Source of the DNA: Bacteroidota bacterium
GTDB lineage: Bacteria > Bacteroidota > Ignavibacteria > Ignavibacteriales > Ignavibacteriaceae
DNA: 64,000 bases
Assembly (NCBI GenBank): GCA_021813585.1
Contig: JAKAJV010000135.1
Coordinates: 1 to 64,000, forward strand
Direction of reading: 5' to 3'
Below are positions 2,531 through 52,338 of the stretch, in pieces. The notes beneath the pieces were generated by a model. The model had not been told where the DNA came from and ran no database searches. It saw only the letters and a list, made by a program, of their open reading frames with translations. Position 1 is the stretch's first letter. Each line of letters starts with the position of its first letter. Made by a program: the position numbers and the translations under genes.

Positions 2531-4096
2531 CTAATCTAATTTCACTTCCTTTTCCACCGCATTCAAAATGATATCTTCTTTAATTAATTCCGCAACCTTC
2601 CTCACGTCTTCAAACAATAACCTGTCATTATCCAAGGGTTTTACTGACTTTCTAATTTCTTTGTAAGCAATTGAGGTTCCTACGCCGGGCATGTTCGGTT
2701 TTAAGAACTCAAGTGCCTGCGCGGCAGTCATCAACTCTATAGCAAGAACATTTTCAAGGTTGTGCATTATGCGGTAACATTTCTGCGCTGCAATAGAACC
2801 CATAGAGTTGTGGTCTTCCTGGTTTGCGGAAGTAGGTATTGAATCCACGCTTGCAGGATGTGAAAGAACTTTATTTTCAGAGACAAGACTTGCAGCAGTG
2901 TATTGTACAATCATTAGACCTGAATTTAAGCCGCCGTTGTTTGCTAAGAAACGCGGAAGCCCACTTAATGCACCGTTAACCATTCTTTCGGTTCTTCGCT
3001 CGGATACATTTGCAAGCTCGGACAATGCAATCGACATAAAGTCCATAGCTAAGGCCATCGATTGTCCGTGAAAGTTCCCTCCTTCAATATGCTCTTCCGT
3101 ATCAGGAAAAATTATCGGGTTATCGTTAACAGAATTTATTTCAATATTAACGCGCGATACCACGTAATCAATTGCGTCCCTTGATGCGCCGTGAATCTGG
3201 GGCACGCATCTGATTGAATATGCATCCTGAACACGGGTATCTCCGGTAATGTGCGACTTTCTAATTTTACTATTCTCAATTAAAGCTAAAACATTTTTTG
3301 CTGTAGTTATTTGGCCGGGGAAGGGACGCAGCCGGTGAAGCTTGGGATCGAAAGCTTTATCAGTTGCTCTCAATGCTTCATGGGATAACGAAGCGGATAT
3401 ATCGGCTATCTTAATTAATTTTTTAGCTCTTATGGAAATGTAAGCCGCAAATGAAGTCATCATTTGTGTGCCGTTAATAAGCGCCAAGCCTTCTTTTGCT
3501 TGGAGTAAGACAGGCTTTAATCCGAACTTTTTTAATCCGGAAGATGCCGGAATTATTTTTACACTTGAGGCATCATCTGCCGTAACATCCTTAACTAATT
3601 GAACTCTCCCCTTGCCTATCATAGCAAGTACAAGATGGGAAAGCTGCACAAGGTCTCCGCTGGAACCTACCGAGCCCTGAGAAGGAACTACCGGAATAAT
3701 ATTATATTTCATCATGCCGATTAACAGCTCAAGTGTCTCAAGCCTTATGCCCGAATATCCTCTTGCAAGTGCATTCAGCCTTAGGAGCATCATTATCTTA
3801 ACAATCATTGGTGGAAGGTTCTCGCCGCATCCGACTGCATGGCTTAGTATTAAATTCTCCTGCAGCTTTTCAATATTTCCTTTTGAAATTCTTACATTGG
3901 AAAATTCTCCGAACCCGGTTGTTACACCGTAAATTGACTCTTCCTTGCTTACCCACTTTTCAACAAGTGCACGTGACTTTTTAATTTTCCGGATGGATTC
4001 TTTCGATAAAACTATTTCAGGATTTTCATGGAGGAATAATTCAATCTGCTCAAGGGTTAGAGATTTGCCGTCGATAACAAGCTTATTTTTAGTCAT
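2531..4096 (-). CDS. hutH: Histidine ammonia-lyase family protein (MIO enzyme)
   Basis: A 521-residue member of the aromatic amino acid lyase family. Conserved features are YGVTTGFGEF near residue 56, the ILSHAVGCG segment (Ser-His as in histidase), the cofactor region GSVGSSGDL at 141-149, INGTQ, and TSANQEDHNSMG near 423-433, where the Glu-containing QEDH is typical of histidine ammonia-lyase rather than phenylalanine or tyrosine lyases. The MIO cofactor usually forms from Ala-Ser-Gly; here the triad is Ser145-Ser146-Gly147. It would convert L-histidine to urocanate. No hutU, hutI or hutG is nearby; instead the gene overlaps hflX by 8 bases, so it is co-transcribed with a GTPase. Substrate is therefore probable, not certain. 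Confidence 0.82.
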   Translation of the reverse strand: MTKNKLVIDGKSLTLEQIELFLHENPEIVLSKESIRKIKKSRALVEKWVSKEESIYGVTTGFGEFSNVRISKGNIEKLQENLILSHAVGCGENLPPMIVKIMMLLRLNALARGYSGIRLETLELLIGMMKYNIIPVVPSQGSVGSSGDLVQLSHLVLAMIGKGRVQLVKDVTADDASSVKIIPASSGLKKFGLKPVLLQAKEGLALINGTQMMTSFAAYISIRAKKLIKIADISASLSHEALRATDKAFDPKLHRLRPFPGQITTAKNVLALIENSKIRKSHITGDTRVQDAYSIRCVPQIHGASRDAIDYVVSRVNIEINSVNDNPIIFPDTEEHIEGGNFHGQSMALAMDFMSIALSELANVSERRTERMVNGALSGLPRFLANNGGLNSGLMIVQYTAASLVSENKVLSHPASVDSIPTSANQEDHNSMGSIAAQKCYRIMHNLENVLAIELMTAAQALEFLKPNMPGVGTSIAYKEIRKSVKPLDNDRLLFEDVRKVAELIKEDIILNAVEKEVKLD

Positions 4097-17823: not shown

Positions 17824-18402
17824 AAAATCCGGTTAAACTCAATTATTAATCAAATTTCTTTAATAACTCACCTTATGCGTAAGACGGGTTATTAAGATAT
17901 AAAATCGAAACAAATATAAACAAGTTCGTGTAATTATAGAAACGGCGGGCAACGTACTAATATTTAAGCTTAAAGCAATGGCTCGACTCCGCCGGCCATT
18001 ACTTAGTACACTTGTTCATAAATACAGTGGCGTATAAAATAATGGTTAAACCTCAATTGTCCCGTAGGACAAAATATTTATAGGATACAATAAACCAGGA
18101 CATATTAAAGTCCCGTAGGGACGAAATAGATGCTGCTGTCTAATACATTTATATAATTTATTAAATATATCTCTAATATATCGTCCCTATGGGACTTTGA
18201 TTTATGTTATTACATTTTTCTATAAATATGTCGTCCCTACGGGACTAATCACAAAAATGTTATGTCATAGTATTTATGAATACGTGTACTAAGTTATATG
18301 TTTTTATTGCAACCCCGATTGGGGTCGAATGATGTTTCAATTTGCCTTTTAATATATTTAAATTTGAACAATGAAAAATTTTGAAGAAAAAGGTTTACTA
18401 AA
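17824..18402. other. Repeat-filled intergenic region
   Basis: No gene is seen. The region is occupied by the 294-bp palindromic element at 18001-18294, and after it an ACCCC-GATT-GGGGT hairpin at 18312-18325. Promoter elements for the methyltransferase gene at 18403 would have to lie in the last 80 bases. Confidence 0.6.
18001..18294. mobile_element. 294-bp near-palindromic element, family A copy 1
   Basis: The ends are 25-bp inverted repeats, ACTTAGTACAC-NNN-TTCATAAATAC at 18001-18025 and its complement at 18270-18294. Inside are four hairpins of one type: GTCCCGTAGGAC (18059-18070) and GTCCC-GTA-GGGAC (18110-18122) in one orientation, then GTCCCTATGGGAC (18183-18195) and GTCCCTACGGGAC (18233-18245) in the other, placed almost symmetrically about the centre. 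No coding capacity. A second element with the same ends is at 51673-51916. Confidence 0.65.
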
Positions 18403-51227: not shown

Positions 51228-51507
51228 TAGCCCAACTTCGACACAATATGGTAAATTTCTATGAAAAATTATAGGAAACAGTTTGAATAGGATATAATAA
51301 CAAATAAATTATTTGTAAAACCTTGTGTAGTGAAAACGGATTGCTCTATAATAATTATTTTTAAAATAAATCCTCGTAGAGGATTAACAAGAGTGGTTGA
51401 AAGAAACTAACACTAAAATAATTGTTGTAGTGAAAACGAGGGGGCAGAAAAATGCGAATCAATCAAGTAATCAAAGTTTTTTCCTTAATTGTGTCGAAGT
51501 TGGGTTA
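51228..51507. mobile_element. 280-bp element with 20-bp terminal inverted repeats
   Basis: TAGCCCAACTTCGACACAAT (51228-51247) and ATTGTGTCGAAGTTGGGTTA (51488-51507) are complementary at 19 of 20 positions. The interior has no open frame, two copies of GTAGTGAAAACG and a hairpin with GTA loop. It appears to be a non-autonomous insertion-sequence derivative; no matching transposase is in the window. Confidence 0.65.
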
Positions 51508-51672
51508 GTGCGGTAGGAGTTTACAAAGCTCCACCAATTCTGTTTGGCGCTCTTTCGTTTAATAATTGAAATATCCCGGCTAAATTAGTATTGATGAGTT
51601 TTTTTTCGGCTTTGAGTTTTTAGTCCTATACAAAATTCAGGACCTTACTTCAAACCTTATTTAATTTCCGAA

Positions 51673-51916
51673 CCTTAGTACACATATTCATAAATACGAT
51701 GACGAATAAAAAAATGATAACCTTATTAAAAATTTATTAACCTTAGTAACATTAGAAAACACCCCTGCTTTCTTTACCTTATTATCTTATTCATAAACAA
51801 GGTAATAAGGTTGGAGTTTTGGGGTAAGCATATGTTACTAAGGTTAGGAAAAAATAAATAAGGTTTTTAAATCTCTTTATAATATGTAACTGTATTTATG
51901 AATTAGAGTACTTAGT
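51673..51916. mobile_element. Family A element copy 2
   Basis: The left end CTTAGTACACATATTCATAAATAC (51674-51697) and the right end GTATTTATGAATTAGAGTAC (51892 on) match the ends of the 294-bp element at 18001-18294, and the left sides remain similar for about 55 bases. The interior differs: it holds CCTTAGTAACA and GTTACTAAGG and an AAGGTAATAAGG hairpin. It is immediately followed by the family B element. Confidence 0.6.
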
Positions 51917-52064
51917 AACTCATGTTACGCAGGAATACATTTTTATGTCTGCATTGTCATTCCCACGAAAGTGGGAATCCATTTTTTATCATATTTTCGC
52001 ATCTTGGATACCCGATTTCGCGGGTATGACACTCAAGCTTTATAATTTTGCGTAACATGAGTTA
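51916..52064. mobile_element. 149-bp MITE-like element, family B copy 2 (inverted)
   Basis: TAACTCATGTTACGCA at 51916-51931 is perfectly complementary to TGCGTAACATGAGTTA at 52049-52064. The interior is the reverse complement of the copy at 47327-47475, with the same two hairpins in the opposite order and only scattered differences. Length is the same, 149 bases. Confidence 0.82.
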
Positions 52065-52338
52065 GTAACATAAGATTATCCCGGTCCTGAGGGATAACCT
52101 TATAACCTAATTAATGTTACTAAGGTCGAATCATTAGACAAGGTTTTTCTGTCTAGCTTATCATCTAAATGGCAATCAATAGTGCGGTAAAAATCGGGCA
52201 ATAAAAACTACTCGCCTTTAAATCAATGTCTTACAAATTCGCTCCTCTCACCTTTAGATGAGCGTCAGAACTCATGAAATATTTGAAGGCAACTGTTAAA
52301 ACAGAAAACAAATATTTATATTCATTACTAGCAATGGG

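Follow-up and report, generated by a model that had tools for sequence, protein, structure and literature searches.

A repeat element with IS630-type ends and a palindromic interior of probable Y1 origin in a genome of the family Ignavibacteriaceae

Structure of the element and its insertion site

Analysis of the window, that is, the whole stretch of 64,000 nucleotides (positions 1 to 64,000 of contig JAKAJV010000135.1, assembly GCA_021813585.1), showed the presence of a gene-less repeat element of 242 bp with genes for response regulators on both sides. No open reading frames of at least 80 aa overlap it. The repeated ends span positions 51674–51915, with a CTTAG pentamer at either edge, which corrects the boundaries 51673–51916 proposed in an earlier note; if the pentamer is a target duplication, the element proper may be 51679–51910. 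As read from the sequence, the element starts with CTTAGTACACATATTCATAAATACGATGACG and ends, in reverse complement, with CTAAGTACTCTAATTCATAAATACAG, and a sister element at 18002–18293 starts with CTTAGTACACTTGTTCATAAATACAGTGGCG. The following features were identified (B and D, palindromic interiors; C, a further element):

51674–51915, plus strand: whole composite element including the flanking CTTAG pentamers, very probably IS630-type MITE ends around a Y1-type palindrome (end pattern, copies, pairing, fold)
51674–51707, plus strand: left end CTTAGTACACATATTCATAAATACGATGACGAAT (pattern match with two mismatches; left-end comparison)
51882–51915, minus strand: right end, inverted, CTAAGTACTCTAATTCATAAATACAGTTACATAT (pattern match with one mismatch)
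51674–51678, no strand: left-hand CTTAG of what is probably a target duplication (pairing script, empty-site alignment)
51911–51915, no strand: right-hand CTTAG of what is probably a target duplication (pairing script, empty-site alignment)
51719–51866, no strand: inner cargo B, nested palindrome AACCTTAT..AACCTTAGTAAC..ACCTTATTATCTTATT / AAGGTAATAAGGTT..GTTACTAAGGTT..ATAAGGTT (reading; elsewhere these arms enclose a Y1 transposase gene)
51652–51678, plus strand: left part of an older, outer B palindrome that holds the element (empty-site alignment with contigs C71 and C83)
52062–52147, plus strand: right part of the outer palindrome (reading, empty-site alignment)
51919–52061, no strand: third element C with TIR CTCATGTTACGCA, between TTAGTAA at 51912–51918 and 52062–52068 (reading)
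18002–18293, plus strand: sister element sharing these ends, with GTCCCGTAGGGAC doublets as cargo D (direct reading, copy comparison)

The end pattern matches the window four times, with no match in 100 shuffled sequences, and the left ends of the elements at 51674 and 18002 are identical at 32 of 38 positions, compared with a maximum of 21 in 2000 shuffles, which bears out the earlier observation of the same ends around different interiors. In the alignment of the two elements the likeness fades past ~50 nt, close to the 55 shared bases reported before, and the interior repeats noted then were found as arm pairs AACCTTAGTAAC/GTTACTAAGGTT and AACCTTATT/AATAAGGTT within 51719–51866. Folded as single-stranded DNA, the whole element reaches -36.8 kcal/mol, compared with -16.9 on average for shuffles (z -6.1; none of 200 shuffles as good). 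A scan of 51400–52300 against Rfam gave two sub-threshold matches only, regarded as chance.

With the element and C removed, the flanks join as AACCTTAGTAACA and align with contigs C71 and C83 across the surrounding repeat, giving a paralogous empty site; the joined site has a single CTTAG in the window and in C71 and CTTCG in C83, and contig C120 aligns with the joined flanks on the right half only. The element therefore lies within the CTTAG pentamer of a B palindrome older than itself, and the outer palindrome belongs to the same family as the inner cargo. Probably the element landed there first and C followed later, at its right edge. In the C59 copy, too, TAAC follows the right pentamer, so that insertion at B-like boxes may be preferred, although two cases prove nothing. 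A larger repeat of several hundred bases (~51515–52200 in the window) lies around the outer B palindrome at four places in the genome, including C71, C83 and C120.

Copies in the genome and interiors between the same ends

The end pattern CTTAGTACACnnnTTCATAAATAC, with up to three mismatches, has 13 matches in the 4.54-Mb genome (G000) and none for the reversed control. These matches correspond to eight copies of the element, C78 being the contig of the window:

C78:18002, C78:51674, C107:29909, C113:7, C104:53308 and C59:16528: copies detected by the end pattern
C106:39840: copy with the right end lost, detected by the end pattern
C55:20504: copy cut by the contig end, detected by the end pattern

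Interior D is present in seven of the eight copies, and interior B only in that at 51674. Identity to the C107 copy is 92–95% for the D copies of C78, C113 and C106, 79% for C104 and 74% for C59, and the remaining part of the C55 copy is 91% identical to it. A common interior with simple decay, which had been named beforehand as evidence against exchangeable interiors, thus describes the seven copies of the 294-bp type, while the copy at 51674 differs. Contig C113 opens with CCGATCT directly at the element end (C113:1–7), perhaps an adapter remnant.

Pairing of ends by script gave 84 rows, many of which listed one element twice, once per orientation, or had a right end matched by chance, and 36 distinct elements were kept by hand. 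The 37 interiors (36 paired elements and L068) fall into ten groups by BLAST clustering, with no similarity between groups, B and D included. Fold z is below -3 in 27 of the 36 interiors and in one of 36 matched flanks of equal length (medians -5.2 and -0.02), the single flank being that of the 51674 element, itself repeat DNA. At least one member with such a fold was found in eight of the ten clusters; elements L074, L106, L114 and L121 have no hairpin.

The largest group, 18 of the 37 interiors, is a Desulfobacterota family with cargo sequence AAGTGCCTAAAGTGAGCTAAAG, and its motif AAGTGCCTAAAGTGANCTAAAG has 377 matches in seven genomes, both directions summed. Among 30 loci with this cargo, several of which are the same palindrome seen twice (L222 and L131 hold the same element), 11 have no end pattern in the locus and 19 have one. 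The unloaded Desulfobacterota copies differ in the junction, as loss of the palindrome would give. As regards a Y1 link of this cargo, no Y1 gene was found in genome G166 at 1e-8, and none of the examined Y1 loci of G174 or G180 has the cargo on both sides.

CTWAG is present on both sides of 19 of the 36 paired elements, with the same W in 16 of these, and other pentamers flank the remaining 17. Agreement of W at this level was reached in 3.8% of trials in which right sides were shuffled (p 0.038), a modest value. The canonical target duplication of IS630 is TA; here the flanking duplication seems, from the flanks, to be CTWAG, longer than TA. Elements of the RS_12_30 and RS_10_39 records, with other flanking pentamers, may follow a different target rule.

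Palindromes and Y1 transposase genes

Both palindromes also occur in the genome without the element ends, B in contigs C71, C83, C120 and C49 and D in C47, C7, C142 and C129; ten such loci were scanned, and no end pattern with up to four mismatches was found, with one match at five. The D palindromes of C129 (L043, L044) lie just upstream of genes that resemble, by eye, CRISPR-associated cas5 and cas4.

Matches to the B core of the window (E 1e-4 or better) were found in 13 of the 164 genomes of the order. In the 19 B loci scanned from the order, ends with at most one mismatch were found in two, G060:C74 and G078:C56, and two others have five-mismatch matches only. In G060:C68, G134:C11 and G078:C45 a Y1 transposase gene fills the loop of the B palindrome, between its two halves. 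Of 30 Y1 loci examined, two (G078:C71 and G181:C64) contain a second Y1 gene, different from the first, that is enclosed by D doublets; the sole Y1 gene found in the genome of the window, on C115, is followed by a single D palindrome, with none upstream. Accordingly, the same arms stand in inverted orientation around a Y1 gene, the arrangement of REPIN/RAYT systems and TIRtrons, for B in three genomes and for D in two.

Both Y1 proteins match PF01797, that of the D gene at 91.1 bits and that of the B gene at 66.4 bits. The B gene scores 18.5 bits with NF047646 (cut-off 80) and 52.4 bits with NF033573 (cut-off 55), and the D gene 64.5 bits with NF033573; by these profiles the predicted proteins score as IS200-like rather than canonical REP-associated transposases, the B gene being barely a canonical RAYT. 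The start of the D-type Y1 gene (MANTFTQIYLH) can still be recognised by alignment in the D loop, so that the D cargo is an internally deleted Y1 unit. On comparison by eye, the B remnant in C71 and C83 resembles the end of the B-type protein (EEYDSFMKFYQ). The B-box pattern has nine matches in the genome against seven for the reversed control, a difference that gives no high copy number, and B is for this reason not filed as a REPIN; a palindrome of TIRtron type agrees better with its moderate copy number. Two other assignments were dropped: integron attC for B, after the boxes were read against the attC consensus, and CGTC-tagged REPs for D, which show no clear fit to section 6 of PMC3733652.

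At G060:C74, an unrelated site in another genus, the left end is joined to a B core that shares 80% identity with that of the window across 113 bp, and a copy of element C stands in place of the right end. This suggests that composites of end and B move or were formed more than once, two possibilities that the data do not separate. In the identity table the B cargo of the window is 80% and 78% identical to free B copies in G020 and 80% identical to the end-bearing B in G060. The end-bearing cargoes are therefore not supported as one another's closest kin, and common descent of the composites of the window and G060 is not established, because the free B of G020 is as close.

IS630-type transposases with the same ends and probable origin of the composite

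Eight of the 164 genomes of the order have the same ends. In genome_contigs, 48 stretches match AGTRYWCNNRTTCATAAATACNNTGAC exactly, mostly of Desulfobacterota, together with some Bacteroidota or Ignavibacteria, the RS_12_30/RS_10_39 records and one Nitrospira. In the Nitrospira record (L146) the left end, identical to that of the window at 33 of 38 positions, lies ~60 bp ahead of an ORF matching the IS630 transposase NF033545. Genome G270, one of two with a match among 197 relatives of the genome of L099, contains a 1330-bp element in which an IS630-type transposase gene lies between the two ends, with CTTAG at either edge. Plasmid 2 of Polaromonas JS666 contains an element of 1291 bp with both ends, the gene of which matches Pfam DDE_3 (6.2e-15) and NF033545 (111 bits). 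The left ends of the G270 and Polaromonas elements are identical to that of the window at 27 and 25 of 38 positions (shuffle maxima 22 and 19), and the right ends are less alike, with 7 and 9 mismatches to a 33-letter pattern.

Thus, the element shares its ends with autonomous elements of the IS630 family (both ends in G270 and Polaromonas, the left end in Nitrospira), is short (242 bp), has no transposase gene and belongs to a family of eight copies. Since these ends bound IS630-type transposase genes elsewhere, the end-bearing elements are taken as MITEs of an IS630 subgroup. Full-length relatives of the element with a transposase, as sought at the outset, exist elsewhere (G270 and Polaromonas), and no match to an IS630-type transposase of this subgroup was found in the assembly of the window; present mobility of the element in this genome is therefore doubtful. 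Against the earlier view of the family as unlike an ordinary decayed insertion sequence, transposase-bearing IS630-type relatives exist, and these make it an IS630-derived MITE rather than something outside insertion sequences.

Several further matches concern the transposase genes. The L146 gene matches NF033545 in two frames, and the transposase genes of L146 and G270, each in two frames, may be broken. Near TTTTTCCCCCTC, the IS630-type gene of L146 (3438–4122) and of L253 falls into two overlapping frames, and that of Polaromonas is annotated as two CDS (L152 1186–2359); a programmed frameshift is possible. Within the L146 gene, ATACGTCACCGTAT at 3514–3527 is, by eye, the reverse complement of the end motif ATACGGTGACGTAT, possibly a binding site or a coincidence. 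In L099 (Bacteroidetes bacterium OSL_B.mb.4) one end follows a reading frame ending KPFEWKFTKNDLKKMIDKL.., which resembles by eye the G270 transposase near its end, KPFQWKFTRQDLDNVIEKL..; the 35-residue protein tail of L099 matches no IS630 profile. Plasmid IS630 elements of Halococcus and Streptomyces, as well as the matches in G303 and G002, are without these ends. Viral contigs gave no relatives of the IS630-type transposase and one lone match to the end pattern, with no second end or transposase noticed in 1.7 kb around it.

The element is very probably an IS630-derived MITE with a Y1-derived palindromic interior. What is seen directly comprises the ends, the families of cargo, the Y1 genes with palindromes on both sides and the paralogous empty site. 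The terminal ~35–45 bp would be the sites bound and cut by an IS630-type transposase acting in trans, and insertion at CTWAG would leave CTWAG on both sides. The middle would represent the palindromic arms of a Y1 transposable unit of the IS200/REP-associated type after loss of the gene, and not IS-derived sequence. Most likely, Y1-derived palindromes were inserted into, or captured by, an intergenic MITE, and the loaded MITE was then spread by a DDE transposase, in which case hairpins of single-strand (Y1) transposition would ride in a double-strand (DDE) transposon.

Chance or a regulatory edge motif as the only link between the elements at 51674 and 18002, otherwise unrelated, is extremely improbable: the absence of BLAST similarity between the interiors would fit it, but the ends occur four times in the window against none expected and 13 times in the genome against none in the reversed control, and they bound IS630-type genes elsewhere. 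Plain nesting, in which repeat families insert into each other and B landed once in one MITE copy with no carriage or exchange, is possible, though not the likelier explanation. It accounts for the order of outer B, the 51674 element, inner B and C, for the restriction of B to one of the eight copies and for the free occurrence of B and D; against it, this left end is also combined with B in another genus, at a site unrelated to that in the window (G060:C74), the D cargo common to seven copies argues that loaded elements multiplied as units, and unrelated hairpin interiors recur inside the same ends in distant lineages.

Fixed ends with different hairpin cargo are supported by the sequences compared. 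The proposal of interchangeable cargo stands as far as the fixed ends, the ten unrelated interior groups and the end-free occurrence of B and D are concerned; active swapping does not follow, as insertion of palindromes, their deletion and the spread of composites look alike. Cassette-like exchange, with interiors swapped between fixed ends by recombination or Y1 activity and hairpins favoured for end pairing or protection, is improbable. The excess of strongly folding interiors (27 of 36 against one of 36 flanks, in eight of ten clusters) and the left-end sequence shared by D- and B-bearing elements as far as the linker speak for it, but 18 of the 37 interiors form one cluster, which leaves few independent cases, hairpin-free elements exist (L074, L106, L114, L121), no exchange junction was caught, and the junctions of unloaded Desulfobacterota copies fit palindrome loss. 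An unlikely and speculative extension is that one very widespread IS630-type end pair would be a general hairpin vehicle, which in many phyla takes up common host palindromes, of Y1 type or other, the hairpin aiding synapsis or giving protection, with two chemistries in one unit and exchangeable cargo.

As a probable MITE of IS630 origin, the element belongs with known repeats, among which the Correia elements and RUP are named as IS630-derived in the relevant part of PMC2817692; these are likewise short, gene-less and multicopy, with terminal repeats of the IS630 family. In contrast to them, the interior here is a palindrome of another transposon class that varies between copies, and the flank looks like CTWAG and not just TA. 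The cargo resembles REPs and REPINs with RAYTs, and TIRtrons, in the inverted palindromic arms around a Y1 gene and the gene-less copies elsewhere, as covered in the pertinent parts of PMC2817692, PMC3116915 (REPINs and their Y1 transposases) and PMC3733652 (TIR-flanked Y1 genes); unlike in these systems, the palindrome lies inside DDE-type transposon ends, and B was not found in high copy. According to section 7 of PMC3733652, REP dimers of A. variabilis and H. neapolitanus are inserted in, and consistently framed by, another palindrome; that section ties no transposase to the frame, whereas the frame here matches IS630-type ends. BrickBuilt and MITE464/PgRS of Porphyromonas gingivalis have near-identical terminal repeats around unrelated repetitive interiors, but, as presented in the relevant part of PMC4596501, with IS5-type ends, tandem repeats instead of hairpins and occurrence in one species and a near relative. 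No description of Y1 palindromes inside IS630-type ends was found in the open-access literature searched.

The composite reading would tie one odd repeat to two transposon classes, with DDE (IS630-type) ends and Y1 (IS200-like) palindromes. Should loaded MITEs travel as whole units, hairpins of REP type could spread with no transposase of their own, and this would bear on the many palindrome families having no transposase nearby; the ends are a simple probe for such composites in other genomes. The family of element C was also found in C120 (L029 1230–1377), L068, L036 and L058, with other hairpins in the interior (TCATTCCCACGAAAGTGGGAATCC); the copy in L068 looks different inside, and fixed ends with different hairpins may apply there too.
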